Part shown: positions 1,654-16,893 of the stretch, one piece after another
How positions within the stretch are numbered: the first letter of the stretch is position 1
Layout of the letters: each line of letters begins with the position of its first letter
Source: Melioribacteraceae bacterium
GTDB taxonomy: Bacteria; Bacteroidota; Ignavibacteria; Ignavibacteriales; Melioribacteraceae
Reading direction: 5' to 3'
Length of the DNA: 34,643 nucleotides
NCBI GenBank assembly: GCA_021647785.1
Contig: JAKIUC010000047.1
Location: 1-34,643, forward strand
Program-made: the position numbers and the translations under genes
The notes under the pieces: generated by a model
What the model saw: the letters and a program-made list of their open reading frames with translations, nothing else
Told to the model about the DNA's origin: nothing
The model's database searches: none

Positions 1654-3885
1654 CTATTTTAATAACATCATTTTTCGTGTTTCGTTAAATTTACCTGAAG
1701 ATATTCTATAAACATACATTCCTGTAGAAAGATTTGCTGCATTGAAATCTACTTGATAAGTACCAGCAGATTTAACTTCATTAATTAATTCAGCTACTTC
1801 TTGCCCAAGAATATCAAACACTTTGATTGTAACAAGTCCACTATTAGGAATTGAAAAATTAATAATTGTGCTTGGATTAAAAGGATTAGGATAGTTCTGA
1901 GACAATTCATATCCATTAGGCACTTCAGAACTAATAACTTCAACACCATTTACAACCATGGAAAGTTTTTGTAAACGTGGGGTACCATTAGCGAAAGTAC
2001 CTATATAAGCATTAGTACCATCTGAATCAAATGCAATACCTCTTGCAAATTCACCATCTTCTGGTGAATCCCAGTTTAGAGCTTCTGTAAATGTTTTGCT
2101 CTCTACATCATACGCATAATAAAATAAATTACCTTTTGTAATGTCATTTCCACGTCCTGCATCATTTGATACCCATAACTGTCCTGTAACTGGATGCCAT
2201 GTTGATGATTCAATACTCATTCCAAAATGAGTAGAATCTGCTAACTCAAAAGAACTGAACTCATCGGCTCTTTTATAAATAAATGTCTTCTGAGCAGTAA
2301 ACGGCATCCAATATAGAGTTAAACCATCTGCTGATACCTCTAATGTTCTTGCTATTGCTGGAGGTCCATCAACCGCACTACCAAGATAATTTAAGTCTGT
2401 ATCATAAGTTGCAATTTGTTTGCCAGCTCCTCCAACTACTGGACCTACATAAATAGTTCCATCGTCTGATACTGATGGTGCTGTTGGGGATGAGCCTGAT
2501 TCTGGAATAAGTGCTCTAGCAATTCCTTCTCCATTAGTATAATCTATTTTAAGCATTTTGCTCGGACCAGATTGGACATAAAGAATATTTCCATTCTCAT
2601 CTAAATTAAGACCTCTACAATTTCCATTTAATGTATCAACCGTAAAACCACCACCTGTAGATACTATGAATATTGGTGAAAAACTTGTTTCTGTACCATC
2701 TTCATTAAAGACTAAAATTGCAGATGTCAAAACTGTATCAGTTCCATCTACTAAAGGAACATCTTTGAAATAACTTGATACCCATACTTTTCCTTCTGCA
2801 TCAACTACTACTCCGTGTGTTCCACCTTTGTAACTCGTATCTGGGAAAGCACCTTCGTATGCCCATGGAGCATTATTGGCTACAGGAGCAAGCGGGGAAG
2901 CTAATTCATCAACAACAACTTTTTGTAAACGTGAAGTAGTATTTGAAAAAGTACCAATATATGCAGTATTTCCATCTGGTGCAAAAGCTATACCTCTTGC
3001 AAATTCACCATCTTCTGGTAAATTCCAATTTAACGCATCAGTAAATGTTCTGCTTTCAACATTATAGCCATAGTAGTACAAATTACCTTTTGTAATATCA
3101 GAGCCTCTAGCAACATCGTTTGATACCCATAGCTCCCCAGTAACTGGATGCCATGTTGATGATTCAATACTCATTCCAATGTGAATTGAGTCGGTAAGAT
3201 CAAAAGCACTAAATTCATCTGTTCTTGTATAAACGTATGTTTTACCAGCTGTAAATGGCATCCAATAGATAGTAAGTCCATCAGCTGAAACTTCTAATGT
3301 TCTTGCTATTGCTGGAGGTCCATCAACCGCACTACCAAGATAATTTAAGTCTGTATCATAAGTTGCAATTTGTTTACCAGCTCCTCCAACTACTGGACCA
3401 ACATAAATAGTTCCATCATTTGATACTGATGGTGCTGTTGGTGATGAACCTGATTCTGGAATAAGCACACTAGAGATTGCTGCCCCAGTTGTATAATCAA
3501 GTTTAATCATTTTGCTTGGACCAGATTGTACAAAAAGTACATTCCCATTTTCGTCTAAGTTTAATCCCCTGCAGTTCCCGTTAATTGTATCAGGTGTTCC
3601 ATTAACGTCAACAATGTAAATTGGTGAAAATGATACTTCTGAACCATCCGCATTAAAGACTTTAATGGCTGATGCTAAGGTTGTATCAGTTCCATCAATA
3701 AATTCAACATCTTTAAAATAACTTGATACCCATACTTTCCCGTCTATATCTACTACTACCCCATGGGTTCCCCCATAATTAGTTGAATCAGAAGAAGGCC
3801 ACGCACCGTCATTTTTCCACCCTTGTGCGGTAATTAAGGTTGAAATTAAAACAACCAATAAAATTGGTGAAATTAGTTTTTTCAT
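1654..3885 (-). CDS. Secreted tandem beta-propeller protein with T9SS type A sorting domain
   Basis: 743 residues. Signal peptide 1-20 (ending ITAQ). Two tandem copies of one propeller-like domain follow: copy A about residues 22-330 and copy B about 340-645, each with GGTHGVVVD, GKVWVSSYFKDV, NGNCRGLNLDENGN, SGSSPTAPSVS and EDGEFARGIAF motifs. The repeat period is 318 codons. Residues about 655-743 are a T9SS type A sorting domain (NYPNPFNPST, ending KMMLLK), so the protein should be exported by the Sec pathway, cross the outer membrane by T9SS and be attached to or released from the surface. The start follows AAGGAG. The single-propeller homologue lies immediately downstream, and the TonB receptor/PorV/lipoprotein genes lie upstream in the same direction. 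Ligand or enzyme activity is unknown; lactonase-like or NHL-like propellers are the nearest folds by appearance. Confidence 0.9.
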   Translation of the reverse strand: MKKLISPILLVVLISTLITAQGWKNDGAWPSSDSTNYGGTHGVVVDIDGKVWVSSYFKDVEFIDGTDTTLASAIKVFNADGSEVSFSPIYIVDVNGTPDTINGNCRGLNLDENGNVLFVQSGPSKMIKLDYTTGAAISSVLIPESGSSPTAPSVSNDGTIYVGPVVGGAGKQIATYDTDLNYLGSAVDGPPAIARTLEVSADGLTIYWMPFTAGKTYVYTRTDEFSAFDLTDSIHIGMSIESSTWHPVTGELWVSNDVARGSDITKGNLYYYGYNVESRTFTDALNWNLPEDGEFARGIAFAPDGNTAYIGTFSNTTSRLQKVVVDELASPLAPVANNAPWAYEGAFPDTSYKGGTHGVVVDAEGKVWVSSYFKDVPLVDGTDTVLTSAILVFNEDGTETSFSPIFIVSTGGGFTVDTLNGNCRGLNLDENGNILYVQSGPSKMLKIDYTNGEGIARALIPESGSSPTAPSVSDDGTIYVGPVVGGAGKQIATYDTDLNYLGSAVDGPPAIARTLEVSADGLTLYWMPFTAQKTFIYKRADEFSSFELADSTHFGMSIESSTWHPVTGQLWVSNDAGRGNDITKGNLFYYAYDVESKTFTEALNWDSPEDGEFARGIAFDSDGTNAYIGTFANGTPRLQKLSMVVNGVEVISSEVPNGYELSQNYPNPFNPSTIINFSIPNSGLVTIKVFDILGQEVAELINEVKSAGTYQVDFNAANLSTGMYVYRISSGKFNETRKMMLLK

Positions 3886-3993
3886 TGTTACTCCTTACTT
3901 AATTAATGATATTGTTTATTTATAGTGCATATTAGCATAGTATTAACTTATCTGTTTTATATTATTTGTTTTATACTAATAACCATTCATAAA

Positions 3994-4019
3994 TATAAAC
4001 TGTTTAAAAACAGTTTATA
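3994..4019 (-). terminator. Possible terminator hairpin after the IPT/propeller lipoprotein gene
   Basis: A perfect stem (about 3995-4004 with 4009-4018) and a 4-base loop sit 67 bases after the lipoprotein stop codon. On the minus strand it is followed by only three U, so termination is plausible but weak; it could also be a structure in the leader of the gene starting at 3885. Confidence 0.4.
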
Positions 4020-4085
4020 AAAAATTATCACAAAATATTTACTCTATCCTTAAAATCCCTATAAAGAATTCAAAACACTAGTCTA

Positions 4086-5300
4086 TTAATCTCTACCAAA
4101 TTCTGGAGCACCAATTTTTTCCATATTTAGTGTATAAATAGTTTGAGTTGTTTCTATACCAACACCAACAAATTGTTCTCTAATGGCATAAAGATTAACT
4201 CCTGTACTCCAGCCAAAATTAATAATTTTAGGATCAATTAAATTTTCATACCAATACCCATACGAACCATCAGCATTAACATATATCATTGGGTTTAATC
4301 CATCAGTACCAATATATAGCTGACCGTCATTCGCAAAGGTTATTGCTTTAACATCCAGAATATCATATCCATAATTTTCTGATAATTGGAAATAATTTTC
4401 TGCACTTCCAAGACTATCGGCTGATATTATTGGCATCCTAATAATATCTTGTGAAGTTTCTGATTTAACTGCCATATATAAATAATCATTAAATATTTTT
4501 ATAGAACTAACATTATCTGCAAAATCGAAAGATTTAATATCTTTATCGGGTGTAACTCTATAGATAAATCCTCCCTTTCCCGCAGTCCAAATATTTCCAT
4601 CTTTATCAAAATCTAAATCGAACATTGCAGTACCGTTAGCAAATGCAGCAAATATACCAGGAGCATTTCCTTCGGTAATTTCAAAAATAGCTCTTACACC
4701 ACGAACCCCATAAAGTGTACCTCCAGTTTTATACTTAAGGCTAAAGTAAAAAGTCTCACCACCTTTTGGTGCAAAATCTACCATCTCTCCATCTGGAGTA
4801 ATTTTTTTAACACCCTTCCCTGCACCATCTTCTGTTAAAGAGAAATAGAGATTTCCAAGTTCATCTGCAGTAATTGCATAAGGTTGTTGAAATCCTAAGA
4901 AAGGATAGACTTCAGCAACTGCCGCTTCTAACTTATACAATTTAGAATCGCTGAATTTTTCTACACCAGCAACAGCAATTTTTACTTTAATGGAATCTTG
5001 TACTAAATCAGGAGCTAAAACCCTTAACTCAGTTTCTGTAGCATTTAATACCTTTGCTGGAAGTGACCCAAAATAGACAAAATTATTTGCAACTTCAGAC
5101 GAGAAGTTTTTACCAGAAATAGTAATTTCAGTTACTCCAGCCAAGCCTTGCGTTGGGTTCATTGAAGTAATTACTGGTGTGGCTCCAGGTTCTTTATCTG
5201 AATACAAACTTGGAGTTGTATCAGGAGAGCAACTTATCATTAACATAAAAGTTATGATAGAAACTATTGATATAATTACTAAATTGTTTTTCTTTTTCAT
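4086..5300 (-). CDS. Outer-membrane lipoprotein with IPT/TIG domain and NHL-like propeller
   Basis: 404 residues. The N-terminus is a lipoprotein signal with lipobox LMISC, putting the lipidated cysteine at residue 24. Residues about 42-128 form an IPT/TIG immunoglobulin-like domain (TSMNPTQGLAG, ITISGKNF). Residues about 130-400 are repeated propeller-like blades (DELGNLYFS, DKDGNIWTAG, ANDGQLYIG). IPT plus NHL-type lipoproteins are common as surface-exposed partners of TonB receptors in Bacteroidota, where they bind glycans or other ligands. It is the last gene of the run starting with the receptor at 11850, 87 bases after the PorV-like gene. It has the same broad architecture (propeller) as the two secreted proteins downstream, but clearly different sequence. 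Ligand unknown. Confidence 0.85.
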   Translation of the reverse strand: MKKKNNLVIISIVSIITFMLMISCSPDTTPSLYSDKEPGATPVITSMNPTQGLAGVTEITISGKNFSSEVANNFVYFGSLPAKVLNATETELRVLAPDLVQDSIKVKIAVAGVEKFSDSKLYKLEAAVAEVYPFLGFQQPYAITADELGNLYFSLTEDGAGKGVKKITPDGEMVDFAPKGGETFYFSLKYKTGGTLYGVRGVRAIFEITEGNAPGIFAAFANGTAMFDLDFDKDGNIWTAGKGGFIYRVTPDKDIKSFDFADNVSSIKIFNDYLYMAVKSETSQDIIRMPIISADSLGSAENYFQLSENYGYDILDVKAITFANDGQLYIGTDGLNPMIYVNADGSYGYWYENLIDPKIINFGWSTGVNLYAIREQFVGVGIETTQTIYTLNMEKIGAPEFGRD

Positions 5301-5387
5301 TTGATAATCCTATATTTTTCTTCCGCCTGTTAACGGCTGAAATATTTAATAGAAATTTAATTATTTATATATTTAACTAAACTATTT

Positions 5388-6392
5388 TTATAATGTTAAT
5401 TTTAAAGCGATGCGATGAATATCTTTAAAATATTCCGCTGGTGTAAATGAGTAATCGAAACCAATTTTTGTTCCATCCTCTTCAAGAATAATACCCGCAC
5501 CATAACTTAACTTACCAATATCGGAATTTGTTATATATCCGCCGCGGAGTGTAAACGTATTATTAAAAGTATATTCTCCTCCTACACGTAGTAGTTCTTT
5601 ATTATCTCGAGGATGCTCTGCATCTATTGCAAATAGGAATGTATGTTTAGCAGGATTTATATTTGTAAAATCGAGTAAGTTCATTGATAATCCAATAGTA
5701 AATGCTAACGGTAGTTGAAAGCTTTCTTCAAAATATGTTATCTCCTGCGAAAAATTACGAATTGACATTCCAAAATTTAAACTTTTATATCCGGTTTTAT
5801 AAAGAACACCGAAGTCAAACGAAACAACATCCAAATCAATTTTTCGAGTTTCATAATTATCATAATCACCACCAACAACATGCCCTGCACCATAATTTTG
5901 ATAGACATACCGAACATCTCCACCTACAGAAAATTTATCGGAGAGTGCTCTGGAATAACTAAACCCCACTGCTAATGCGGATGGTTTGTAAACACCAATA
6001 TCAAGAGAACCACCATCGGGACCAATAATTGTTTGATTAAAAGCGCCATAATCTACATTGAGAAGTGAAAGACCAAAAACCCCATATAAACCATTTGCCG
6101 GAGCATAAGTTAAAGCAGCATGGATATAGTTAATATCAGCAATCCATGTTGTATTTGTAAAACTAACATTAAACAGAGATGTTTGCCTTGAAACACTTGA
6201 TGGATTATAATAAAGGGAGGCAGAATTACCTTCTAATGAAGTAACAGCCCCACCCAATGCTGCACCCCTTGCATCGGCACTAACACTTAAAAACTTCATT
6301 CCACTTTGTGCTAATTTTACTTGAGCAATATTATTTTGTATTGCAAAAAGCAGTATTATAACAGACAAGATAATTTTTAATTTATTATTCAT
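5388..6392 (-). CDS. PorV/PorQ-family outer-membrane beta-barrel protein
   Basis: 334 residues with signal peptide 1-24. The mature start has the family's signature run GMKFLSVSADARGAALGG followed by an NSASLYYNPSS motif, as in the PorV/PorQ (FadL-like barrel) family. The rest alternates short polar and aromatic-rich strands and ends in LKLTL, typical of a barrel C-terminus. In T9SS bacteria PorV escorts cargo from the translocon to the attachment complex; Ignavibacteria-type genomes carry many paralogues and the job of each is generally unknown. It sits 19 bases after the T9SS-like cargo gene at 6412-8541, which suggests they are made together and that this paralogue may serve that cargo. 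That pairing is inference. Confidence 0.88.
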   Translation of the reverse strand: MNNKLKIILSVIILLFAIQNNIAQVKLAQSGMKFLSVSADARGAALGGAVTSLEGNSASLYYNPSSVSRQTSLFNVSFTNTTWIADINYIHAALTYAPANGLYGVFGLSLLNVDYGAFNQTIIGPDGGSLDIGVYKPSALAVGFSYSRALSDKFSVGGDVRYVYQNYGAGHVVGGDYDNYETRKIDLDVVSFDFGVLYKTGYKSLNFGMSIRNFSQEITYFEESFQLPLAFTIGLSMNLLDFTNINPAKHTFLFAIDAEHPRDNKELLRVGGEYTFNNTFTLRGGYITNSDIGKLSYGAGIILEEDGTKIGFDYSFTPAEYFKDIHRIALKLTL

Positions 6393-6411
6393 TTAAGTAC
6401 CTATTACAATT

Positions 6412-8541
6412 TTATCTAATTATCGAAAATTTAACAATTTCTCTGTCACCGGTTTTACCATCTGTAATTACTGCAATATAAATACCACTAACTACCAATT
6501 GGTTAGAAGATGTTCGCAAATCCCAATCATCCGAACCACTACCATCATTATGCTCAATAGTTTTAATTAATTCACCGAGTTCTGTAAAAATTAGGATTGT
6601 TGCAACACCTGAAAGGTTATCGAAAGAAATTTTATTACGTTCAACACTACTGCTTCCAAACATCCAATTATCGCTTGCTGAAATAATATAAGGATTTGGA
6701 TATACTCTAACTTTATCAGTAATATTATCTTCACCCCTACTTCGTTTAAATGCTGAAGTATAAGACTGAGTATAAGACCTATTACTTTTTAATGTATGTG
6801 CAGGAATATTTAATGCAGGATTTGCCGGCTGATCTTCACCAACTGAAACAATGTAGTAATAATATGCTATATCTTGTCTTTGAGTTGTATCTTGATATTC
6901 AAGAACATCTGAACTTAAATCGGCAATTTTTTCAAATTTGGAATAATACTCGTTACTTGCATAGCCATCTACAGCTTCTAAAGTATTTCTGTATATTTCA
7001 AATCCTTTTACCTCAGGACCATCCGGATGAAGCTCCCAACTTAAATCTATTCTTCCACCACGTGAGTTAACCTCGAAGCTTCTTGGCGGATAAGGTGCAA
7101 AGGGAATATCCCAATCGTTTTTATAAGCATCCATTGCTCGCTCAAATGTAACATGAAGGGAATCTTGACCTCCAAGCACAGCAATATTTTTCTCTGCAGT
7201 ACTTATAGTAGCAGCTTTAAATAATTTTCCAATTTTAATTGCCTCATCTCTACTTAATCCGGAAGAACCTTCAACAATAGTTATTTTAACACTATCACCA
7301 TAGGCAACTTGATATGGACCATAACCATTAACATACGAGTAACCAGCACCATTTACAGATTTATCACCACCAACTACGAGGGAACCAACATAATCGCCAC
7401 CAGTAATCCAATCTGCATGGCTCTCCTCAGGATGACCTTTTACCATCATTGCGTATCTGTCTTGCATTTGCTGACCATTAAAAGTATCGGCAGCATATTG
7501 CAAAGCACCATCCGATGATTCATAGCCAGTAGTACTTGGTTGATTAGGATCATCTATTGTTTGATCGGTTCCATTTTGAGCAAATAGAGTTAGCATGCCT
7601 GAAAACTGAGCAGCACCAAGTCTTCCAACTGTATCTGCTGCATTTATTCTTGCACCATATCCTTCATCCGGGCGCCAAATGGGACCGCCAACACTATTGT
7701 AATCACCAAATTTATCATAATATCCGTGCCATGCATAAGAGTATCTCAACTCTGCATTTAAACCAGCTGGATATGGACCAACTTCATTATTAAGGGTATT
7801 TGCACCCCAAGAAGTTGGGTCACCAAAAAGAATTCTTGTTTCTTTAATAAAACCATGTCGTCGCTGGAAGTAGAAATAAACATCCTCTAAATCTCCGTCT
7901 GTTCTTTCAATTTCATCATCATCATCTATATTTCCAGTGTTGATAAAAGTATATTCTGTAACATGGAAATTATCATAGTAGGGATTACTAAATTGAAAAA
8001 TCTTTCTTTTCATCGTCATACCAAGTTGAGTATTTACTACATTGTAAATCATCTGATCATACGGCATGTTCGGGTCTAATTCATCAATAGTAATTTGCTG
8101 CCCCGGATAGTTAGTTAATTCTCCATCCACTCTAACTTCTGTTGGTTGAAACTTAGCATACTGTTTAAACTCAATTGCAAAAAATTCACTAGAGCCACCG
8201 GTTTGTGGTCTTGGTCCGCAATGAACTACTTTATAATCAAAAGTAGTATTACTCGCTTGAGGGTCTGTATAGTTTCGGGTACCAATCCACAATCCTTTTG
8301 CTGCCTGCATATCTTGTTTAGGATAGTAAGCTGGCCACTGCCATCCCCACAGTTGTTCTTTACCTGATGCGTTATCTTCCTCTCTTTCCTGACCAATACT
8401 TGAATACCAATTGTGGAAAGAACCAACATTTAACCATTTTTCAGTTTTTCCTATGCTTGATTGAGCGTTACTTTCACCAATTGGTACAATAATGAATGCC
8501 ACAATCAATAAAGAAAACATTTTATAAAAATCTTTTTTCAT
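6412..8541 (-). CDS. Large secreted protein with FN3 domain and T9SS-like C-terminal domain
   Basis: 709 residues. Signal peptide 1-26 (ESNAQ). Residues 30-480 are a large region rich in W, Y and G that I cannot assign to a named family (motifs WGWQWPAYYP, GLWIG, DGDLEDVYFY). A fibronectin type III domain spans about 485-575 (DLSWELHPDG, FEIYRN, YYYIVSVGED). The last 100 residues (VRVYPNPYI, SGIYIAVI, ending VKFSIIR) look like the divergent T9SS sorting domain that is common in this lineage. It lies between the TonB receptor gene and the PorV-family gene, all co-directional. A surface-attached role with the receptor is plausible, but no activity can be read from the sequence. The start follows an AGGT ribosome site. 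Confidence 0.82.
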   Translation of the reverse strand: MKKDFYKMFSLLIVAFIIVPIGESNAQSSIGKTEKWLNVGSFHNWYSSIGQEREEDNASGKEQLWGWQWPAYYPKQDMQAAKGLWIGTRNYTDPQASNTTFDYKVVHCGPRPQTGGSSEFFAIEFKQYAKFQPTEVRVDGELTNYPGQQITIDELDPNMPYDQMIYNVVNTQLGMTMKRKIFQFSNPYYDNFHVTEYTFINTGNIDDDDEIERTDGDLEDVYFYFQRRHGFIKETRILFGDPTSWGANTLNNEVGPYPAGLNAELRYSYAWHGYYDKFGDYNSVGGPIWRPDEGYGARINAADTVGRLGAAQFSGMLTLFAQNGTDQTIDDPNQPSTTGYESSDGALQYAADTFNGQQMQDRYAMMVKGHPEESHADWITGGDYVGSLVVGGDKSVNGAGYSYVNGYGPYQVAYGDSVKITIVEGSSGLSRDEAIKIGKLFKAATISTAEKNIAVLGGQDSLHVTFERAMDAYKNDWDIPFAPYPPRSFEVNSRGGRIDLSWELHPDGPEVKGFEIYRNTLEAVDGYASNEYYSKFEKIADLSSDVLEYQDTTQRQDIAYYYYIVSVGEDQPANPALNIPAHTLKSNRSYTQSYTSAFKRSRGEDNITDKVRVYPNPYIISASDNWMFGSSSVERNKISFDNLSGVATILIFTELGELIKTIEHNDGSGSDDWDLRTSSNQLVVSGIYIAVITDGKTGDREIVKFSIIR

Positions 8542-8581
8542 AATTCTACCTAAAATTTCATATGTTTATATTTTTTAACGC

Positions 8582-8661
8582 TGTCATTACGAAGGAGTGA
8601 ATACGACTGACGTAATCTGTTACAGATTGCTTCATCCCACAAAACGGGATTCGCAATGACA
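8582..8661. repeat. Interspersed inverted-repeat element with three stem-loops
   Basis: The ends are near-perfect inverted repeats (8582-8593 with 8650-8661, 11 of 12 pairs; core TCATT-CGAA). Inside are a perfect 6-base-pair hairpin (8614-8619 with 8623-8628) and a 5-base-pair hairpin (8634-8638 with 8646-8650). The TCATTGCGAA-type ends are a known style of short dispersed repeat in many bacteria. It fills most of the gap between the TonB receptor gene and the next gene, so it would be transcribed within the putative operon. Confidence 0.7.
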
Positions 8662-8709
8662 TTCTTAAATTTTGTATTTGTCTTTTGATTAGTCAAACTT
8701 ATTTCTCAT

Positions 8710-11700
8710 CTATAATGAAATATTAAATTTTAGCCCGAAGAATATGTTCCTCGGATTTAAGAATGTAAAGAAACTATAATTTGGCATATCTATATATGAT
8801 TTATCTTTAAGAACTTTATTCATTTTTGTTTCATCTGATCTTTCCCATCCTGAGCCTGTAGAATATTCATAAAACCGTCTTGTTTGGGAATCATAATATA
8901 TTAGACCCTCATCTGGGCTTTCAATATTATTAATATTTGAAACAGCTTCAATAGGAGTATATTCAGCACCAGTTACTCTATAATCACCAGGTTTATCATT
9001 TCCAGGTACATTATAGTATTTTTGCGTTTCACTATTAACAATGTTTTCAGGTAAATGAAGTGATTTCATATAATTATCGTAGTCAAAATTAAATCGTGAA
9101 AAGCCTGTTGAAGAGAGAACTTTACTATTAAAAACATTATTTAGCTGAACATAAATTTGAATATCGAAAGTTCCAAAATCCAAACCTTTTGAAAGACGAA
9201 TATCTGTATTATAATAATCTAACCATTGCAGATTATTTGTTGTCTTAGCACTTTCACCAGCATCTCCTTTCCATGATGTATAACTACCAGCTTTCCATGT
9301 TGAAAGAATATTTAATCTCCACCCGCTAATTAAATCACCAAACCCAACAGGTGTAAATATATCGATATTTGCTCTTGCAAGTGGGCGAGGTATAGGTTTA
9401 TCTTGTTTGAACCATGTTTGCCCGGAAGTGTTAATATATTCAGTTTGGTCAACAGAAGATTCATAATATCTTCCCCATCCAAATTTACCGAGTGAAGTAA
9501 CCATATAGTTATAGTTCACAAAACCAGTAATCCAATCACCACGGTTTTTACTTATTTGAACTTCAAAACCTCGAATATCTCTATACTGTATTGGTTCGGT
9601 TTTAAGATAATTAACAACCCCATCAGCACTTGTATAACGAATATCGCGTGACTCATTTGTTATATCTTTATAATAACCAGTCATTCTTAAAAGATATTGG
9701 TCGAACAAATTGTGTTCATATCCAACTTCGTATGTAATTGTTTTTTCTAACTTAGCATAAGGGTTTGCAAACGAGTTAACTTTTCCAAAAGAATCCTCTG
9801 CAACAAGATATAAATTATTTGGAGTTGGCAAAGTTTGGTAATGCCCATAATTTAAGAACAACTTACTATTAACAGTAATAGGAAAAGCAACTCCAATACG
9901 TGGCATAAATATTAACTGCGGTGTTACTTTTTCTTTCACAATTAGGTTATCTCTATTGGCAGCATTTGAAGCAGATAAACCAGGGTCGAAAGTTGAGTAT
10001 TGATACCAGTCAGTATTTGGGTCAGAGTATTCTACACGTACACCAATTGTAGCAACCATAGCCTCAAATTCTAATTTATCTTGTATATACCCAGCTAATA
10101 AAATTGGAGTAGTATCCCAAGCATAAGTACGATTACTGGTAGAATAGAGTTCAGAGACTCTTCCATAATTTGTATTGAAGTTACTCATCCTAAATAGAAA
10201 ACCAACCTTAATATTGTTAAACTTATCAACCTGACTTGATAAATCGAACTTTAAATTAAAAAGAGATACTTTACTTGTATCACGTGCTTGGCTATAAATA
10301 GAACCCATCAGCATATTACTGCCATTCCACACATTTGATGCACCCTGGTAATATCCAAATGGAGCTTCATCAACATAATAGTTGTTTCCAAAAAGATTTT
10401 TCTCGCGTAAATCTCTCACAGTTCCCGGATTTGTATTATACTCTGAATTAAAATTACTGAAAATAAGATTATAGAATGTTGATGGATTTATAACGTGAGT
10501 AAATTTTGCAGCAATACTAGAACGATTAACTCTTGTTGGAGAAAAGTATGCATCAGAGAAAAGAACTGCATTAGTATAATTACCGTAATCAACTCTATCA
10601 GCTAATTGCCAGTTCGATTTAAAAAGTCCAGTTCCACCAGATGTACTTCTTGTAGTACCAGACTGTGCACCAAAATGACCTTCAACCATCAACTTCATTC
10701 CTTTAGCCAAATCAGATGTAAGTTTTACTGAAGTATTATAATCACTATAATCTGGAGTTGAAAGAGGGACTAAAAGCATAGTTTGGTTTTGCTTGTAACT
10801 TGCTAAAAACCTAAGCCCACCAAGAGATTGACCAAAAGGTACCGGACCGCCAACAGAGACATCAATATCATAATCGGGCTTTTCAATATCAAATGTTTTT
10901 CGGTATTGCCACAAGAATAACTTTTGAGCAGCTTCCGGGGTTAGGTCATCATCCGGATTATCATTTTGTAGTGTTCCCTCTGCAAAAGCATTCCATCCCT
11001 GAAACTCCGGGTATTGACGCTTTTCATATTCAGACCAAGCACCATTGTTTGTACCTGTCCAAGCAACTGCATCATCAAGATAGGGTCTAATAAAATAGGA
11101 GTTAGGATCATTTACAGAAGCACCCATATGTTTATTTGCTGCTGGTCTAAACTGACCTTGAAAACTGACACTATATTTATGTCTGTCCCCTTCCTTAGTA
11201 ACAACCTCAATTAAACCAGAGCGTACATCTCCAACATCAGCAGTAAAACCTCCGGATTGAACACGAATTTGCTGTACAGAGGTTATACTTAAATTGTTAT
11301 AGGATGAATTATCACGCCCATCTCGCATAGAGATACCGTTTACTTCATATACAACTTCATCACCCGAACCGCCTCGAATTGTACCTCCTTCAACACCTGC
11401 TTGAAGACCAACAGCACCAGCAATATCTATTACAGGTAAATTCCGAAGTTCTTCTGCATTTAGGTTGGCACTACTTGAAGCAACATCTCTCTGAACTATT
11501 GGTGTAACTGCAACTACAACAACCTCATCTGTTTTAATGGATGAATCGCTTAATTTAAAATTTGCTTCACTCGTCTCACCAATATTAACACGTAGGTTTG
11601 AAATTGTTTGTGGTGCAAATCCTATGTAGGATGCTCTTATATTATACTTACCAGGTGTTACATTAAGAATTACGAAGAAGCCATCTAAATCAGTTGCAGC

Positions 11701-11850
11701 TCCAAACATAGTTCCATCTATAATAACATTAACCCCAATTAATGGCTCTCCTGTTGTAACATCAGTTACAGTTCCTGTAATTTTGCCCGATTGAGCAGTA
11801 ATTGAGATGGTGGTTAGTAAAATAAATACAAATAGTAGAAATTTTTTCAT
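8710..11850 (-). CDS. TonB-dependent outer-membrane receptor with carboxypeptidase-regulatory-like N-domain
   Basis: 1046 residues. Signal peptide 1-19. Residues about 22-105 form a CarboxypepD_reg-like domain (GKITGTVTDVTTGEPLIGVNV, AATDLDGFFVI). Residues about 115-225 are the plug (LRNLPVIDIAGAVGLQAGV, IRGGSGDEVVYEVNG, VRSGLIEVVTKEG). The remainder is a beta barrel rich in aromatic strands, ending FGLKFNISL. The family imports large ligands across the outer membrane using TonB/ExbBD energy, with SusC-type members taking up glycans or peptides. No SusD partner is adjacent; instead a T9SS-like secreted protein, a PorV-family barrel and a lipoprotein follow. The start follows GAGGAAATTAT. It is the first gene of the run, with about 600 bases of non-coding sequence upstream, so its promoter is probably there. 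Confidence 0.93.
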   Translation of the reverse strand: MKKFLLFVFILLTTISITAQSGKITGTVTDVTTGEPLIGVNVIIDGTMFGAATDLDGFFVILNVTPGKYNIRASYIGFAPQTISNLRVNIGETSEANFKLSDSSIKTDEVVVVAVTPIVQRDVASSSANLNAEELRNLPVIDIAGAVGLQAGVEGGTIRGGSGDEVVYEVNGISMRDGRDNSSYNNLSITSVQQIRVQSGGFTADVGDVRSGLIEVVTKEGDRHKYSVSFQGQFRPAANKHMGASVNDPNSYFIRPYLDDAVAWTGTNNGAWSEYEKRQYPEFQGWNAFAEGTLQNDNPDDDLTPEAAQKLFLWQYRKTFDIEKPDYDIDVSVGGPVPFGQSLGGLRFLASYKQNQTMLLVPLSTPDYSDYNTSVKLTSDLAKGMKLMVEGHFGAQSGTTRSTSGGTGLFKSNWQLADRVDYGNYTNAVLFSDAYFSPTRVNRSSIAAKFTHVINPSTFYNLIFSNFNSEYNTNPGTVRDLREKNLFGNNYYVDEAPFGYYQGASNVWNGSNMLMGSIYSQARDTSKVSLFNLKFDLSSQVDKFNNIKVGFLFRMSNFNTNYGRVSELYSTSNRTYAWDTTPILLAGYIQDKLEFEAMVATIGVRVEYSDPNTDWYQYSTFDPGLSASNAANRDNLIVKEKVTPQLIFMPRIGVAFPITVNSKLFLNYGHYQTLPTPNNLYLVAEDSFGKVNSFANPYAKLEKTITYEVGYEHNLFDQYLLRMTGYYKDITNESRDIRYTSADGVVNYLKTEPIQYRDIRGFEVQISKNRGDWITGFVNYNYMVTSLGKFGWGRYYESSVDQTEYINTSGQTWFKQDKPIPRPLARANIDIFTPVGFGDLISGWRLNILSTWKAGSYTSWKGDAGESAKTTNNLQWLDYYNTDIRLSKGLDFGTFDIQIYVQLNNVFNSKVLSSTGFSRFNFDYDNYMKSLHLPENIVNSETQKYYNVPGNDKPGDYRVTGAEYTPIEAVSNINNIESPDEGLIYYDSQTRRFYEYSTGSGWERSDETKMNKVLKDKSYIDMPNYSFFTFLNPRNIFFGLKFNISL

Positions 11851-11910
11851 ATAATTTCCTCTACGCTTAACTATTTATGAATAATATCGGTTATTAGTTT
11901 TATAATAATA

Positions 11911-11929
11911 TCCTATGTGAAATATAGGA
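11911..11929. promoter_or_regulatory. Dyad in the 5' region of the TonB receptor gene
   Basis: A 6-base-pair inverted repeat (11911-11916 with 11924-11929, TCCTAT/ATAGGA, 7-base spacer) lies 61-79 bases before the receptor start. Its position suits an operator or a leader hairpin. There is no other support, and AT-rich sequence often yields such dyads. Confidence 0.3.
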
Positions 11930-12051
11930 ATTATTTTTAATAAAGTCCTAATTATATTAATTATATTTAGAAAATATTGAACTTCAAAAATATTCTATCA
12001 ATAATTTCGTTGAAATATTCCAACAAAAACAGTAATACTATAACTTTAATA

Positions 12052-12206
12052 AACACACCCCTTAATCCCCTCTCAAGAGGGGAAATGCCTCCATTCCACT
12101 CTGTGGAATGCTGTAAAAACCCCCTCGTGAGAGAGAAAACATAGCCATTCCACACTGTGGAATGGCTATAAAAAGTCCCCTCTTGAGAGGGGGTTGGGGG
12201 TGTGTT
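12052..12206. repeat. 155-base non-coding inverted-repeat element with nested hairpins
   Basis: The outer arms (about 12052-12083 and 12176-12206) match as inverted repeats through AACACACCCC and CCCCTCTCAAGAGGGG blocks. Between them lie a perfect 8-base-pair hairpin (12092-12099 with 12103-12110) and a perfect 13-base-pair hairpin (12141-12153 with 12157-12169), both built on CATTCCAC/GTGGAATG with 3-base loops. It lies between the end of the GHL10-like gene and the TonB receptor gene. The minus-strand ORF through it (11967-12218) reads TPPTPSQEG and SPLERGLRG, which is the familiar false translation of such repeats, so I treat the element as non-coding. Confidence 0.8.
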
Positions 12207-12303
12207 CTTTCCTCCCAAATATGCTTAACTTTTTATGTTAACACCATTGCCTAAAAGAACCGGACAAAACATAATCACTCAAAACATTTTGCTTAATGAG
12301 TAA

Positions 12304-12320
12304 TCCCAATACAATTGGGA
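12304..12320. repeat. Hairpin TCCCAAT/ATTGGGA
   Basis: Perfect 7-base-pair stem (12304-12310 with 12314-12320) with a 3-base loop, inside the repeat-rich gap 11851-12447. The 13 bases from 12317 (GGGACTGTGATAA) recur at 12413-12425 beside another CCCG/CGGG structure, so this is one unit of a small repeat cluster. Confidence 0.6.
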
Positions 12321-12365
12321 CTGTGATAAGCTTTTGTCCAAAGCCTTCTGTTATAAAATAAACGG

Positions 12366-12382
12366 ATCCCGCTCTGCGGGAT
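12366..12382 (-). terminator. GC-rich hairpin downstream of the GHL10-like gene, possible terminator
   Basis: Perfect 7-base-pair stem ATCCCGC/GCGGGAT with a 3-base loop, 66 bases after the stop codon at 12448. On the minus strand it is followed by CCGTTTATTTTAT, a broken U-rich tract. It may terminate the GHL10-like transcript, or simply be another unit of the local repeat cluster. Confidence 0.45.
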
Positions 12383-12385
12383 ACT

Positions 12386-12462
12386 TTATTTTATCAGCAG
12401 CCCCGATAATGCGGGACTGTGATAAAAGAATTACTGCTAACGCAGCATTATTTTATCAGCAG
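12386..12462. repeat. 15-base direct repeat duplicating the end of the GHL10-like gene
   Basis: TTATTTTATCAGCAG occurs at 12386-12400 and again at 12448-12462. The right copy encodes the last four codons and the stop of the GHL10-like gene. The bases between contain a CCCG/CGGG structure and GGGACTGTGATAA. The layout looks like insertion of a hairpin unit with target duplication, or slippage at the gene end. Confidence 0.6.
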
Positions 12463-15339
12463 CATCTTCTTAATTGATACAAATTCTTTTGACTGTAATC
12501 TGTACAAGTATAAACCACTTGTCATTTCAGAAGCATCAAAAGAAATATTGTAAATGCCGGCTTGTAAATCTTCATTAACAAGTACTGCTATTTCCTGACC
12601 TATTATGTTATAAACCCTAAGAGATGTCATACCGCTTTCAGGTATACCAAATGAAATAGTTGTTACAGGATTAAAGGGGTTAGGATAATTCTGCTCTAAA
12701 GTATATTCTTGAGGAAGACTTAAATCAATATCCTCCGCAGAGACAACAGAATCTGCTGCTGTTTTAAATTTAAATATTCCAGTCCACTCGCTTTGTCCAA
12801 AATCATTACTCGCTAACACACGCCATGAGTATATTTTATTAACTTCTAAATCTTCATATTTAAAAGTTGTATCAGCAACAAGTGTATCTATCATTAAATC
12901 TTCCAAGTTAATGTTTAATCCTTCTGATAGCTGGAGGTTATACTCCGTTGCTAAATCGGAACTATTCCAAATAAATGTTGGGTTTAATTCTATATCCAAA
13001 GATACATCTTCAGGATATATTAGTGATGTCATAAGTGGAAATCCGGTAGCAAATTTGAACGCTTCCGAAAACAGACTACTACCACCATTGTTATAAGCTC
13101 TAACCCTCCAATAGTAAGTTGATGCACCTTCAAAGCCACCGAGTGTAATTGTGGTATCTTTAATATTATCAATATCAAATACTCTTTGAGAAAATGTTTC
13201 TATTAGCGAAACTTGTATTCTAAAATCGTCCGAATATTCATCACCCTGCCAAACAAATGTTACAGTATCCCCCAATGTGCTTAAGTCATGTAAAGGAGAG
13301 AGCAATATTGGAATCTCTGGTAGAATAATTATTGTTTTCAATTGGAATAAATCTGCCCATCGGCTAATACCAAAATCATTTCTTGCAGTTACACTCCAAG
13401 CATAAAAAGTACCTGGTTTCAAATTGGCTATCTGGAAAGTTGTATCTGTTACAATTGTATCAACAACAATTTTTTCTGAAGTAATGCCAAGTCCTTCAGA
13501 TAATATAAAGCGATACGAAACTGCAATCGGGTTACTACTCCATTCAAACAATGGATTTAATTCGACATCAATTTCCTGGTACATTGGTGTAAGTAGAATT
13601 GGAGCAGCAGGGTATGCAGTTGTAAAACTATAACTATCAGCAAAATTACTTTCACCAGCAAGATTTGCAGTTTTCACCCTCCAGAAATATTCTGTTTCCC
13701 CAGATAAACTAGTAATTTGGTATGAGGTATCTAACAGCGAATTTTCTGAATAAACAATATTTGTAAAAGCTACATCCGTAGAGAGCTCAAACGAATAAGA
13801 ACTTGCATTATTTGCATAATTCCAAACAAGTTGCAGTGTATCTCTAACATCAATCGAGGAATTAAATGGTAACAATAGATTTGGTACATCTGGTAAAACA
13901 ATGGAAGGCTGGTATTCAAATTTATTACTGATACTACTTTCATTATTATTCCAATCAAGTGCTGTTACGTAGTAGTAAGCATTACTCGTTGGAAAATTTT
14001 CATCAATTTGCACAAAATGATTTGATGTTATTTTAAATATATTCTTTGGGTCTGAAATATCTGTTGTATCAAAGTTTGAATCCTCCGAACGGTAAAGAAC
14101 GTAGAACTTTATCTCCTCCCCTTCCGGAATATCCCAAGTTAATGCTGTTGTTCCAATTCCGGCAACTCTATCAAAACGTAAATTTGTTGGTTTGTTTGGG
14201 GCAACAGTATCTTTCCAATCCATAACCGGAAGTAGTGCGGGATATTTATAATAGCTATTAATTAGTGTATCTGTAATTCCCCCTTTGTTATCGTCAAAAT
14301 TGTTTGATGTAAAATATACTTCTCCAAAAATTCCATCAGTCTCACGGTTTAGAGTAACCATTTTCCCAATTTGAGTTTTATCAAAATTAGATTCACCTAC
14401 TCTGTAGTAGGCTAAGCCCGGATAAATATGCCTATCGTTACTAACACTTGCCCACCAAGGAGCTAACTTTCCGTAATCCTGCCCGCCGCCAAATGACCAG
14501 TAAAGTTGGGGTGCAAGATAATCTATAATTTGTTCATCCAACCAAGTTACTGCATCGCAATAGATAGCACTATAAACATTCCATCCCCAAGTACCCTCTG
14601 GTGTTCCGCTTTTCCAAATACCGGGTGGGCTTTGTCCAAATTTTACACGAGGGTTTACAGCTTGTATTGTTGCATAAATCATACGGAGCAATTCATTTAC
14701 ATTATCTCTACGCCAATCCCCTTTATCTGTAAAGCCATTTGGATAATCGGCAAATGTTTGATCATCCTCGTTTGTAATTCCAGATAGATAAAAGTAATCA
14801 TCAAAGTGAATTGCGTCTAAATCATACCTTGAAATTATATCTGTAATAACATCAACAATATGTTGGCGTACTTCGGGTATGCCTGGGTCTAAAATTTCAT
14901 CCCCATCAATATTTAAAACCCACTCCGGATGTCGTCTTGCAACATTCATTTCATCGAGAGCTAAATTGTAGCTTGCAAGTCTAACTCTGTACGGATTTAA
15001 CCAAGCATGCAGTTCCATACCACGTTTGTGAGCTTCTTCAATTGCTATTTGCAGCGGGTCAAAAAATGGAGATGGGGCTTTCCCCTGCTGCCCCGTAAGC
15101 CAATATGACCAAGGCTCAATATTTGATTGATACATTGCATCAGATGCAGGACGTATTTGCATTATTACTGCATTGATATTGGTTGCTTTTAAATAATCAA
15201 TTATTCCAATTAAATCTGAAATCTTTTTTTCTGTTGTATTGGATGGACTTGAGGGCCAATCGATATTACGAACTGTGGAGAGCCATGCACCTCTTAGTTC
15301 ACGCTTAGGTGTAGTGGTTTGTGAAAATACTTGAGTCAC
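12448..15339 (-). CDS. GHL10-type glycoside-hydrolase-like protein with FN3 domains and T9SS sorting domain
   Basis: 963 residues counted from a GTG at 15339. Residues about 12-330 match the GHL10 (DUF187, 'family 10 glycosylhydrolase-like') family: RELRGAWLSTVRNIDWPS, AVIMQIRPASDAMY, HAWLNPYRVR, DAIHFDDYFY. Four to five FN3-like domains follow (about 380-860), several with EYFWRV or YYWRVRA motifs. Residues about 875-963 are a T9SS type A tail (NYPNPFNPVTT, ending KKMLLIK). It probably acts on cell-wall or extracellular polysaccharide outside the cell. The start is odd: a signal-peptide-like stretch (RILLIILFLVTQVFSQ) is encoded in frame upstream of the GTG back to a stop at 15397, but contains no ATG, GTG or TTG early enough. 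An ATT at 15369 would give a normal signal peptide, so the true start may be non-canonical or mutated. Confidence 0.88.
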   Translation of the reverse strand: MTQVFSQTTTPKRELRGAWLSTVRNIDWPSSPSNTTEKKISDLIGIIDYLKATNINAVIMQIRPASDAMYQSNIEPWSYWLTGQQGKAPSPFFDPLQIAIEEAHKRGMELHAWLNPYRVRLASYNLALDEMNVARRHPEWVLNIDGDEILDPGIPEVRQHIVDVITDIISRYDLDAIHFDDYFYLSGITNEDDQTFADYPNGFTDKGDWRRDNVNELLRMIYATIQAVNPRVKFGQSPPGIWKSGTPEGTWGWNVYSAIYCDAVTWLDEQIIDYLAPQLYWSFGGGQDYGKLAPWWASVSNDRHIYPGLAYYRVGESNFDKTQIGKMVTLNRETDGIFGEVYFTSNNFDDNKGGITDTLINSYYKYPALLPVMDWKDTVAPNKPTNLRFDRVAGIGTTALTWDIPEGEEIKFYVLYRSEDSNFDTTDISDPKNIFKITSNHFVQIDENFPTSNAYYYVTALDWNNNESSISNKFEYQPSIVLPDVPNLLLPFNSSIDVRDTLQLVWNYANNASSYSFELSTDVAFTNIVYSENSLLDTSYQITSLSGETEYFWRVKTANLAGESNFADSYSFTTAYPAAPILLTPMYQEIDVELNPLFEWSSNPIAVSYRFILSEGLGITSEKIVVDTIVTDTTFQIANLKPGTFYAWSVTARNDFGISRWADLFQLKTIIILPEIPILLSPLHDLSTLGDTVTFVWQGDEYSDDFRIQVSLIETFSQRVFDIDNIKDTTITLGGFEGASTYYWRVRAYNNGGSSLFSEAFKFATGFPLMTSLIYPEDVSLDIELNPTFIWNSSDLATEYNLQLSEGLNINLEDLMIDTLVADTTFKYEDLEVNKIYSWRVLASNDFGQSEWTGIFKFKTAADSVVSAEDIDLSLPQEYTLEQNYPNPFNPVTTISFGIPESGMTSLRVYNIIGQEIAVLVNEDLQAGIYNISFDASEMTSGLYLYRLQSKEFVSIKKMLLIK

Positions 15340-15657
15340 TAAAAATAATATAATGAGTAATATTCTAATAGGATATCCGATGTTATTATTATTATACTAA
15401 AAACCTACTGGCTAAATGGTAACTTACCCTATTTTTTATAAAACTTCAAGAAATATCGTTCAATAATCTAATAGATTTTGAATGTTTATTCTCATGGCTA
15501 CATTTTATTTTGCTCGTAGAACTCCGAGAGATGTTCTGGGGGAAAAGCCACATGTGTCTTTTCAATTTAACTTTCTCAAATTTATAGTGAGATGAATAAC
15601 TTAGTATAACCTAAATTGAACATAACTCACAAATAATTATCGTCGGGTTAACAAATA
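15340..15657. other. Gap of 318 bases between thiolase and GHL10-like genes
   Basis: The first 60 bases (15340-15399) encode in frame the likely signal peptide of the GHL10-like protein. In the rest I see no RNA gene, no convincing open frame and no strong hairpin. It should contain the end of the thiolase transcript and the promoter of the GHL10-like gene, but neither can be pinpointed. Confidence 0.5.
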
Positions 15658-16893
15658 CTATTTTCCCTTTTTATAAATAATGCACGTTACGGTTTTATCA
15701 TCGCCACCCATGTTTATTGTCATTCCGTATGGACGTTCATCCGAAATTTTAATCTGTGCATCTCCAGCTTTTCCGGTAAGCTGTTGCCAAACTGTTATAG
15801 CTTGATGAACTCCAGTAGCACCAACAGGATGCCCCCATCCAATGAGACCACCAGTAGTATTGAATGGTACTTCGCCATTGCGGGCTGTGCTGCCGTTTAA
15901 TACATATTCCGTACCTTTACCAGGCTCTGCAAATCCAATTGCTTCTGTAGCCATTATACCAGCAATAGTAAAGCAATCGTGAGTTTCAACAGTACCAATT
16001 TGTTCCTTTTTAATTCCAGCTTTTTCTAATGCTTTTTTTACTACCTTTTCGGTTGTGATAAGTCTGGTAGGGTCTTCAGGTTGTGTTGTAATATCATCTT
16101 CTCCTTGTGCAAAAGCAATAACTTCAACAGCATCATTTTTATCAATACCACAACGGCTTAAACCTTCCTCCGTCATAATTGCCAATGCTGATGCTGCATC
16201 TGAGACTTTGGAACAATCGAACACAGTTAAATTATCTACAAATACTTTTCCATTAGGTTCAATGTTTGCAGTTTCTTCAAGATTAGTATCTGAGTTGTGA
16301 TATTCTTGTGCAGTAGAATCAAGGCGAGCATTTTCAATAGCATTTTTGTACCAGCGTACCATTGCATTTCTTGTAACTTCCCTTCCATACTTTTCGTAAT
16401 ATGCACATGCCCTCACACTAAATTGTCCTGGGAAGAAGTGTGCATGACCATCCTTTCTATCTTTCCACCAACCAGCAGTAGCAAGTATATCAGCACCATA
16501 AACAGCTTTAACAGTATTCTGAACTTCAAAGCCAATAGTTAAAATAACATCACTCTCATCGGATAAGAGAAATTTAATTCCTGTAGCAACAGCCATACCA
16601 CCAGAGCCACACGCACCTTCCACTCTAGTAGATGGTTTATATTTTAATTTTTCATCAATGTAAGGTGCATATCCAGGAAGGTTTGCCTGCTTATTATATT
16701 GCGAAGCATTGAAATTACTAATTACTGTTTCATCCACATTTTGTGCCCCGCCAATTTGTTTTAATGTTGCTTCGCCCGCCTCTTTAATATAATGCTCTAA
16801 GCCTGGTCTTGGTTTTTTAGGATGAAATTCTTTTCTACCTGTACCGAGCGAAATTGTGTTATAACCAGCAGTGATATATATTTTCTTCCTCAT
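15658..16893 (-). CDS. Thiolase-family acyl-CoA acyltransferase
   Basis: 411 residues from the ATG at 16893 (MRKKIYITAGYN). An upstream in-frame ATG at 16908 adds only MGGII and lacks a ribosome site, whereas GGGAGGA (16900-16906) precedes the chosen start. The thiolase fold is clear: nucleophile Cys95 in VEGACGSGGMAV, a THDCF motif near residue 303 and the GWGHPVGATG loop near 353. The form with GACGSGG and ETHDCFTIAG resembles the SCP2-type thiolase subfamily, which cleaves 3-oxoacyl-CoA or condenses acyl-CoA units. The start codon overlaps the stop of the dehydrogenase gene by one base (TAATG), implying translational coupling. Together they would perform the last two steps of beta-oxidation or the reverse reactions. 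Direction and chain length cannot be told. Confidence 0.92.
   Translation of the reverse strand: MRKKIYITAGYNTISLGTGRKEFHPKKPRPGLEHYIKEAGEATLKQIGGAQNVDETVISNFNASQYNKQANLPGYAPYIDEKLKYKPSTRVEGACGSGGMAVATGIKFLLSDESDVILTIGFEVQNTVKAVYGADILATAGWWKDRKDGHAHFFPGQFSVRACAYYEKYGREVTRNAMVRWYKNAIENARLDSTAQEYHNSDTNLEETANIEPNGKVFVDNLTVFDCSKVSDAASALAIMTEEGLSRCGIDKNDAVEVIAFAQGEDDITTQPEDPTRLITTEKVVKKALEKAGIKKEQIGTVETHDCFTIAGIMATEAIGFAEPGKGTEYVLNGSTARNGEVPFNTTGGLIGWGHPVGATGVHQAITVWQQLTGKAGDAQIKISDERPYGMTINMGGDDKTVTCIIYKKGK

Follow-up and report, generated by a model that had tools for sequence, protein, structure and literature searches.

The locus described here raises the question of how a TonB-dependent receptor that stands without a SusD-type partner might be served at the cell surface, and what a secreted protein and a PorV-family barrel are doing beside it. 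It lies in a stretch of 34,643 nucleotides (the window), which is the entire contig JAKIUC010000047.1 (C97) of the 4.25-Mb, 99%-complete genome of a Melioribacteraceae bacterium (assembly GCA_021647785.1), referred to below as the host. Four co-directional envelope genes encode the receptor, a 709-residue protein with a C-terminal tail for the type IX secretion system (T9SS), hereafter the cargo, a PorV/PorQ-family outer membrane barrel and a lipoprotein. The gaps of 168, 19 and 87 bases between them, given in a preliminary description made from the sequence alone, were confirmed by the open reading frame (ORF) coordinates, as were two further secreted propeller genes after the lipoprotein. 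Judged by gene content, conservation and tail sequences, the locus probably belongs to a family of SusD-free uptake operons, in which the receptor is combined with a T9SS-delivered, probably glycan-binding partner that would be held by a dedicated PorV-family barrel.

Conservation of the receptor–cargo pair

Gene neighbourhoods were compared for 120 loci drawn from 245 genomes of the class and from a scan of named genomes (best 80 of 247); these loci are the best matches by cargo similarity and not a random sample. A full cargo ORF was called in 113 of them, which reduction at 90% identity brought to 98 non-redundant loci, and a further set of 104 loci retained the dropped loci and excluded duplicates. 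Seven loci had no full cargo ORF called (L098, L109, L114, L115, L135, L137 and L154); in L098, L109, L135 and L137, receptor, cargo and PorV sequences were nonetheless found in order by a DNA-level search, pointing to calling faults or partial coverage.

The receptor gene lay directly upstream of the cargo gene in 95 of the 98 non-redundant loci, the other three being situated at contig ends. When all full-length genes of the 709-residue type in non-redundant related loci were counted, the same order was observed for 108 of 111, with two exceptions beginning at a contig end and the third (L155) preceded by a 106-amino-acid fragment before the contig end. A PorV-family gene was present in the same gene run in 92 of the 98 loci by ORFs and in 96 after the DNA-level search, which recovered it directly after the cargo in L149, L152, L156 and L157; the two loci that still had none by that search, L072 and L168, are truncated at contig ends. 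The conserved co-occurrence for which the preliminary description had asked was thus found, and the scattering of orthologues that it had named as the contrary outcome was not seen, apart from a few solitary relatives that carry a different tail. A chance gene cluster was rejected on the strength of this order. The other members were the TIG lipoprotein (88 of the 98 loci), a T9SS-tailed propeller protein (69) and a T9SS-tailed GHL10 enzyme (43), and before removal of near-copies the median gaps were 19 bases between receptor and cargo (n=110) and 16 bases between cargo and PorV (n=75). By gene order, the four genes form a conserved unit, to which the GHL10 gene upstream of the receptor also belongs; the preliminary description had seen the four but overlooked both the GHL10 gene and the repetition of the unit across the genome.

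In L161, L171, L180 and L185 two receptor–cargo pairs share one PorV gene, as they also do on host contig C8, while L189 is cut soon after its pairs. Since two pairs can share one PorV gene, the receptor–cargo pair appears to be the unit, as SusC–SusD is. By record title, the loci came from Ignavibacteria, Rhodothermales, Balneolaceae, KSB1, Neomarinimicrobiota and Calditrichota, with single representatives of Delongbacteria and WOR-3, and mostly from metagenome bins. The raw tally of the cargo model (238 of 245 genomes) was not used as a family count because many matches cover the tail only. An extra lipoprotein-like gene (about 190–390 amino acids) was observed between cargo and PorV in 23 of the 113 loci (for example L089:7951-8907 and L161:11082-12092), and the three of these that were run against Pfam gave no match.

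Fold of the cargo and its partners

The Pfam scan assigned the cargo to no family, and its matches to T9SS tails were weak; its closest named relative, at 86% identity, comes from a Melioribacteraceae metagenome-assembled genome. The structure model was of high quality (predicted local distance difference test score, pLDDT, 91.5; predicted template modelling score, pTM, 0.88), and approximately residues 28–480 aligned with the N-terminal sandwich and linker of glycoside hydrolase (GH) family GH94, GH116, GH149 and related enzymes (Z of about 15–19 over 235–291 residues; VIA-align). The statement in the preliminary description that region 30–480 has no nameable family therefore stands for Pfam but not for the fold. 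In GH94, GH65, GH15 and GH116 enzymes this sandwich is non-catalytic. The best alignments of GH type were confined to approximately residues 28–535, after which the model shows an FN3 domain; the catalytic barrel of GH94/GH116-type enzymes was not seen after the sandwich, a missing match that is no proof of absence. Because that barrel was not seen, the modelled cargo is best read as a glycan binder rather than an enzyme.

Homology of the cargo to SusD, which is mainly helical, was rejected, since neither the protein nor the host genome gave a match to the SusD family PF07980, in a search whose Bacteroides positive control did match; other SusD-like Pfam families were covered for the proteins of the operon, by their Pfam scan. 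The preliminary description of the locus as free of SusD was borne out within that scope. The VIA-align list for the cargo showed no SusD either, which does not prove a different fold. Across the class, PF07980 matched in 56 of the 245 genomes, and PorV-family matches numbered 3–26 per genome in 41 class genomes, some of them possibly pieces. Four genomes of family f25 (G148, G156, G176 and G240) had 4–8 PF07980 matches each; three of the four were among the seven genomes without a cargo-model match, and the fourth had a single weak one. There is a hint in these sequence matches that SusD and cargo systems may replace each other.

The C-terminal part of the cargo resembled PorZ in fold (5m11; Z 12.7, root-mean-square deviation 2.2 over 90 residues, 23% identity) and in sequence, with residues 600–709 matching the PorZ-like tail model NF052228 (E 2e-6), while its score against the type A tail model TIGR04183 (20.4 bits) fell below the cut-off of 23.

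The receptor gave Pfam matches to CarboxypepD_reg and, weakly, to Plug, and scored far below the cut-off of the SusC/RagA model TIGR04056 (66.2 against 368 bits). Its AlphaFold2 model (pLDDT 87.2, pTM 0.83) was recognized by Foldseek and VIA-align as a TonB-dependent transporter, with PirA (Z 37.5, 503 residues) and Cir (Z 36.2, 542 residues) among the matches; it models as a plug within a large beta-barrel, the ordinary fold of such transporters. Of the two functions that had been left open for the unit, uptake or export, export is consequently the less likely.

The barrel exceeded the cut-off of the PorV/PorQ-family model NF033709 (182.9 against 90 bits) and remained below those of the equivalog models for PorV (85.6 of 250 bits), PorQ (81.7 of 220) and PorV2 (31 of 325), with an additional weak Pfam match to Toluene_X/FadL. 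In a tree that included a random sample of 30 of 96 related PorV genes, it fell in a well-supported clade (100/99) together with the C8 copy and the 30 relatives, apart from the canonical-like PorV, PorQ and PorV2-like proteins of the host; several branches are long and the deeper order is unsure. The lipoprotein matched TIG (E 1e-11) and, weakly, propeller families, and has a lipobox-like start as judged by eye.

Two classes of T9SS tail

A model built from 16 host cargo tails was used to score the tails of the host. Those 16 tails were its top-scoring rows (97.7–133.5 bits), followed by one tail at 49.9 bits, from the cargo of the C16 operon, and all others scored at most 39.4. All 17 cargo-class tails of the host lie in receptor operons, 16 of the tails in operons that contain a PorV gene. 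TIGR04183 found 150 ordinary type A tails in the host (150 of 201 candidates were scored), none of which was among the 16 cargo tails. By inspection, a PorV-family gene lies within approximately 250 bases of the end of 13 of the 17 cargo tails; all 150 ordinary tails are farther than 1 kb from the listed PorV-family genes.

Applied to the other loci, the host tail hidden Markov models recognized the cargo class in 110 of 130 cargo tails, whereas the tails of the propeller proteins (75 of 79) and GHL10 enzymes (47 of 50) were ordinary, and none of these was of cargo class. Among the 20 cargo tails not assigned to the cargo class, 19 gave no or an ambiguous result and one was called ordinary on 11 bits; their ends look cargo-like, and an insertion before the last strand had defeated the filter. 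On these scores, both tail classes coexist within one locus, consistent with a shuttle dedicated to the cargo and with the canonical PorV serving the enzymes.

A natural tail swap was observed in relatives of the cargo that stand alone. Three of the 120 loci (L114, L115 and L154) contain a cargo body, and no receptor, PorV or lipoprotein sequence was detected on the stretch by the DNA-level search. Their bodies share 70, 64 and 38% best-segment identity with the window protein, respectively, and their tails are ordinary type A (93.5–110.8 bits), with cargo-class scores of at most 11.6. A further 16 stretches were picked by eye for matches that stopped before the tail or had a separate one, and yielded two more solitary copies (L196 and L201) with ordinary tails (102.4 and 84.0 bits), bringing the solitary relatives with ordinary tails to five of five, as well as 11 intact copies accompanied by receptor and PorV genes, all 11 with a cargo-class tail (65.3–101.7 bits). 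Two of the cargo genes in this set (L198 and L210) lie on overlapping stretches of one contig, and three stretches were left uncounted: L195, which is the L115 locus, L204, which has an internal stop and no readable tail, and L206, which is cut by a contig end. The genomes of L196, L201 and the L115 twin (G208, G130 and G211) contain the operon as well, and L113 and L114 belong to one bin. Because solitary bodies carry ordinary tails and bodies within operons carry cargo-class tails, the tail class, as far as these sequences go, tracks the partner genes and not the body, and the association exceeds what block duplication of operons alone would give. The uncounted copy in L204 (8825-10837, on contig C3 of G007) looks solitary as well, with no receptor or PorV labelled nearby, and is possibly a decaying copy.

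The same observations bear on the possibility that the genes are neighbours through shared regulation only, in which case the cargo would be an enzyme or adhesin acting freely at the surface, with no tie to the receptor. In favour of this, the FN3 domain of the cargo is common in adhesins and enzymes, and the five solitary relatives imply that the body can work alone. Against this stand the strict receptor–cargo order, the joint duplication of the pair, the change of tail class with the partners and a cargo in which no catalytic barrel was seen, so that we consider mere co-regulation very unlikely.

Repetition in the host genome and the case for a dedicated shuttle

The host encodes a T9SS outside the window, with SprA_N, PorU, PorQ and PorZ models over their cut-offs and a canonical-like PorV gene (239.5 bits, cut-off 250) adjoining PorU. 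Fourteen host operons combine a receptor with a PorV-family gene. Contig C8 holds a second full unit of the window type, in the order receptor, cargo, receptor, cargo, PorV, lipoprotein and propeller, and further operons in which a receptor and a PorV-family gene accompany a T9SS cargo with this type of tail were found on C5, C82, C54, C24, C61, C85, C2, C86, C90, C75, C47 and C16. Sugar-linked neighbours, judged from protein starts, were LacI-like regulators on C24 and C75 and ABC transporter-like genes on C24. Two similar receptor–cargo pairs, on C90:1-4794 (L031) and C3:1-4856 (L038), both run off their contigs at an identical position within the cargo, which probably reflects a repeat that broke the assembly.

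Across 13 host operons the distances of receptor, cargo and PorV were correlated (r 0.84–0.85), and among the ten closer operons those of whole cargo, PorV and receptor still were (r 0.52–0.69). The correlation between tail and PorV distances, in contrast, was gone once the three most divergent operons had been removed (r -0.05, p 0.59), and co-variation of tail and PorV was accordingly given up as direct support for a shuttle.

This last result counts against a dedicated shuttle, as do several others. The C74 operon (L194, C74:4000-21000) has a receptor and a cargo-class tail and no PorV-family gene within the 17 kb read, and in L072 the lipoprotein gene follows the cargo directly, with no PorV on the short contig. 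Moreover, the solitary copies are without receptor and PorV together, so that the tail might serve either of the two or both. A possible alternative explanation keeps the module as it is but denies the PorV paralogue the role of dedicated shuttle: the canonical PorV would export the cargo, the paralogue would be a FadL-like channel or a structural barrel of the uptake complex, in keeping with its weak Toluene_X/FadL match, and the special tail would bind the receptor or another part. This reading accommodates the points just listed. It is harder to reconcile with a cargo tail that forms a separate class from the 150 scored ordinary tails and in 13 of 17 cases ends close to a PorV-family gene, or with the use of ordinary tails by bodies that have no partner genes, and it is regarded here as unlikely.

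The proposal of the preliminary description, that a dedicated PorV paralogue delivers the 709-residue protein to the surface beside its receptor, thereby gained ground from the gene pairing, the tail class of its own, the way this class follows the partners and the location of PorU, PorQ, PorZ and a canonical-like PorV elsewhere in the genome; the physical delivery is what we infer.

Organization of the window

The features of the window are collected in Table 1. The three short gaps between the operon genes contain none of the terminator-like sites found, and several lie between the receptor and the upstream GHL10 gene; positions 3800-15700 contain 11 such sites against a shuffled mean of 5.4 (consensus matching only). 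From this distribution, the four genes are probably transcribed together and GHL10 separately, with the receptor gene likely the first of the operon. Promoter-like sites (55, compared to 54.6 in shuffles) showed no excess and were not used as evidence.

Two further observations concern other elements of the window. Near-palindromic repeats at 12054-12192, in the gap between GHL10 and receptor, look like a small mobile element or one akin to repetitive extragenic palindromic (REP) sequences, and the 21-mer of these repeats that was tested occurs once in the window. On the minus strand, 28768-33498 encodes a 1576-amino-acid T9SS-tailed protein matching Cohesin, Reelin-subrepeat and Kre9-like models; a cohesin on a T9SS cargo seems unusual.

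Table 1. Genes and other features of the operon region, with the basis of each assignment
Feature	Coordinates	Strand	Basis
TonB-dependent receptor, 1046 aa (CarboxypepD_reg domain, plug, barrel)	8710..11850	-	Domain scans, AlphaFold2, structure matches
T9SS cargo, 709 aa, proposed glycan-binding partner of the receptor	6412..8541	-	Scans, conserved place directly downstream of receptor, model
Cargo N-terminal beta-sandwich and helices, ~residues 28–480, GH94/GH116/GH149 N-terminal domain fold	7102..8460	-	Structure alignment
Cargo FN3 domain, ~residues 485–590	6772..7089	-	Structure model
Cargo PorZ-like T9SS C-terminal domain, ~residues 608–709	6415..6720	-	NF052228, 5m11 alignment, tail-class tests
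PorV/PorQ-family outer membrane barrel, 334 aa, proposed dedicated shuttle and anchor for cargo	5388..6392	-	NF033709, tree
Lipoprotein, 404 aa, TIG/IPT domain and propeller-like C-terminal part	4086..5300	-	Domain scan, conservation
SMP-30-like propeller protein (PROP), ordinary type A T9SS tail	1654..3885	-	Domain scans, tail scoring
Second propeller protein with CBM20 match, cut by contig end	3..1475	-	Pfam
GHL10 enzyme homologous to Cwp19 and DigH, with FN3 domains and ordinary type A T9SS tail	12448..15339	-	Pfam, homology; possibly separate transcript
Terminator-like stem-loop cluster between GHL10 and receptor genes	12058..12447	-	Consensus matching

Likely substrate of the window subfamily

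The GHL10 enzyme of the window scored 211.3 bits against PF02638 (cut-off 27.9), and its GHL10 domain matched Cwp19 (5oq2; E 1.8e-92) and Escherichia coli DigH (36% identity, E 2e-79), itself a PF02638 protein. Cwp19 is reported to have lytic transglycosylase activity (PMC6016235) and DigH to cleave denuded peptidoglycan glycans (PMC12288456). Near GHL10 in some relatives lie genes for an N-acetylmuramoyl-alanine amidase, an NlpC/P60 peptidase with SH3 domains, and NagA and NagB, the latter two over their cut-offs, together with an L-Ala-D/L-Glu-type epimerase that scored below model cut-offs and NagX-like and BadF-type kinase genes, both below NCBIfam cut-offs. At least one amidase, NlpC/P60, epimerase, nag or BadF-type gene occurred in 15 of the 104 non-redundant loci, compared to none of 19 other host stretches. 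The closeness of GHL10 to Cwp19 and DigH and the amidase and nag genes in some loci suggest peptidoglycan glycan fragments, which are the favoured substrate of the window subfamily with about an even chance of being correct.

Several findings point away from this substrate. GHL10 is absent from more than half of the loci, some of which are cut short, and none of the additional nag or amidase genes occurs in the window neighbourhood of the host itself. Alpha-glucans are suggested by CBM20 matches of the second window propeller and the C8 propeller, and by alpha-amylase genes in four of the 104 loci (L071, L079, L085 and L107, the first two confirmed by Pfam). An alpha-glucan such as starch or glycogen would explain these matches. 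The recurrent enzyme, however, is GHL10, both characterised relatives of which act on peptidoglycan, the amidase, NlpC/P60 and nag genes recur as described, and the CBM20 matches are barely above the cut-off (25.6 against 23.3 bits in the second window propeller), which makes an alpha-glucan an improbable substrate.

A propeller sensor kinase (Reg_prop, Y_Y_Y, HisKA_3) was observed beside the unit in eight of the 104 loci and a LuxR-type response regulator in seven; loci with a kinase or regulator are L076 (1299-5130), L084, L092, L094, L096, L117 and L119. The sensor-kinase query also matched one of the 19 other host stretches.

Alternatively, instead of feeding the cell, the locus might turn over or recycle polymers of its own wall or envelope, with the receptor as a signalling or housekeeping component. 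Such a role would suit the wide conservation over deep lineages, and GHL10, amidase and NagX-type genes also serve recycling, with AnmK present in the host. The T9SS-tailed enzymes are nevertheless predicted to act outside the outer membrane, and the sensor kinase and regulator beside the unit in some loci likewise speak against it. Recycling is therefore given a small share of the probability.

Proposed mechanism

What is fixed in gene order is the pair of TonB receptor and T9SS-tailed cargo, with a PorV-family barrel, joined in the window subfamily by the TIG/propeller lipoprotein, the propeller and often GHL10. In the mechanism we propose, the cargo would be secreted through the SprA translocon and picked up by the PorV paralogue of the operon rather than by the canonical PorV, and its PorZ-like C-terminal domain would stay bound to the operon barrel, keeping the cargo on the surface, where it would sit beside or on the receptor. 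The glycosidase-type non-catalytic sandwich, proposed to bind sugar, would catch oligosaccharides and hand them to the receptor, which is the job of SusD in Bacteroidota. GHL10 and the propellers, with their ordinary tails, would be exported by the canonical PorV and would prepare or retain the substrate, in the window subfamily most likely peptidoglycan glycan fragments. Both complex formation between receptor and cargo and the substrate are inferred.

More broadly, deep Bacteroidota-related lineages may possess a second general solution to glycan uptake, with approximately 14 systems per genome for different substrates. Each TonB receptor would be paired with a T9SS-exported, glycosidase-derived binder parked by its own PorV-family barrel, which would read the PorZ-like tail, and the window copy would scavenge peptidoglycan fragments; the chances for and against this whole proposition appear evenly balanced. 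The ordinary tails of the solitary copies shifted our assessment: a SusD-free uptake operon with a dedicated barrel moved from narrowly favoured to probable, the general solution from slightly below even to even, and the alternative without a dedicated shuttle from doubtful to unlikely.

If true, the proposed mechanism would explain the import of large nutrients by T9SS bacteria in which SusD proteins are few or absent, and the abundance of PorV-family genes there. It would also add PorZ-like tails with PorV barrels to the cargo-specific T9SS shuttling known for type B tails with PorP/SprF barrels, and would offer a possible import route for peptidoglycan fragments. The natural tail swaps, in which the same body occurs with and without partners, offer test material for shuttle specificity.

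Comparison with known systems

A description of the module was not found in the one open-access library searched. In the genome paper of Melioribacter roseus, Mros0761-0759 were named SusC, SusD and SusE (PMC3534657). SusCD loci resemble the locus in several ways: the gene directly after that of the TonB receptor encodes a surface partner, other surface lipoproteins and glycoside hydrolases accompany the two, the pair duplicates as a unit and regulators lie nearby in some loci. They differ in that the partner here is a beta-sandwich T9SS-tailed protein with no PF07980 match in protein or genome, that a PorV-family barrel is part of the operon and that the window receptor lies far below the SusC/RagA cut-off.

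The type B C-terminal domain (CTD)/PorP/SprF systems of Flavobacterium johnsoniae, as presented in PMC12618676 and PMC10202324, similarly co-encode a cargo and a PorV-like barrel, occur as several pairs per genome and have a shuttle that is thought to set the final place of the cargo. The pairing of type B cargo with PorP/SprF has been demonstrated experimentally, and type A CTDs are all stated to use PorV (PMC12618676). Unlike in these systems, the window tail is PorZ-like, the barrel belongs to the PorV/PorQ family and not to PorP/SprF, and the pair sits with a TonB receptor; a term search of the main text of PMC12618676 gave no mention of TonB or SusC.

The catalytic domain of the window GHL10 enzyme is like those of Cwp19 and DigH, from which the enzyme differs in its T9SS tail, its FN3 domains and its link to a TonB receptor operon. 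A parallel for the tail is PorZ–PorQ, in which a cargo with a retained C-terminal domain likewise resides on a PorV/PorQ-family barrel, and which the window tail matches in sequence and fold. The PorZ tail is reported to be retained on PorQ, and a review suggests that cognate PorV-like barrels could spare a tail from cleavage (PMC10202324). PorZ serves secretion itself, in contrast to the window protein, whose body is a glycosidase-type sandwich and whose partner gene encodes a TonB receptor. With the mechanism proposed above, the module would combine SusD-free uptake with cargo-specific T9SS shuttling.

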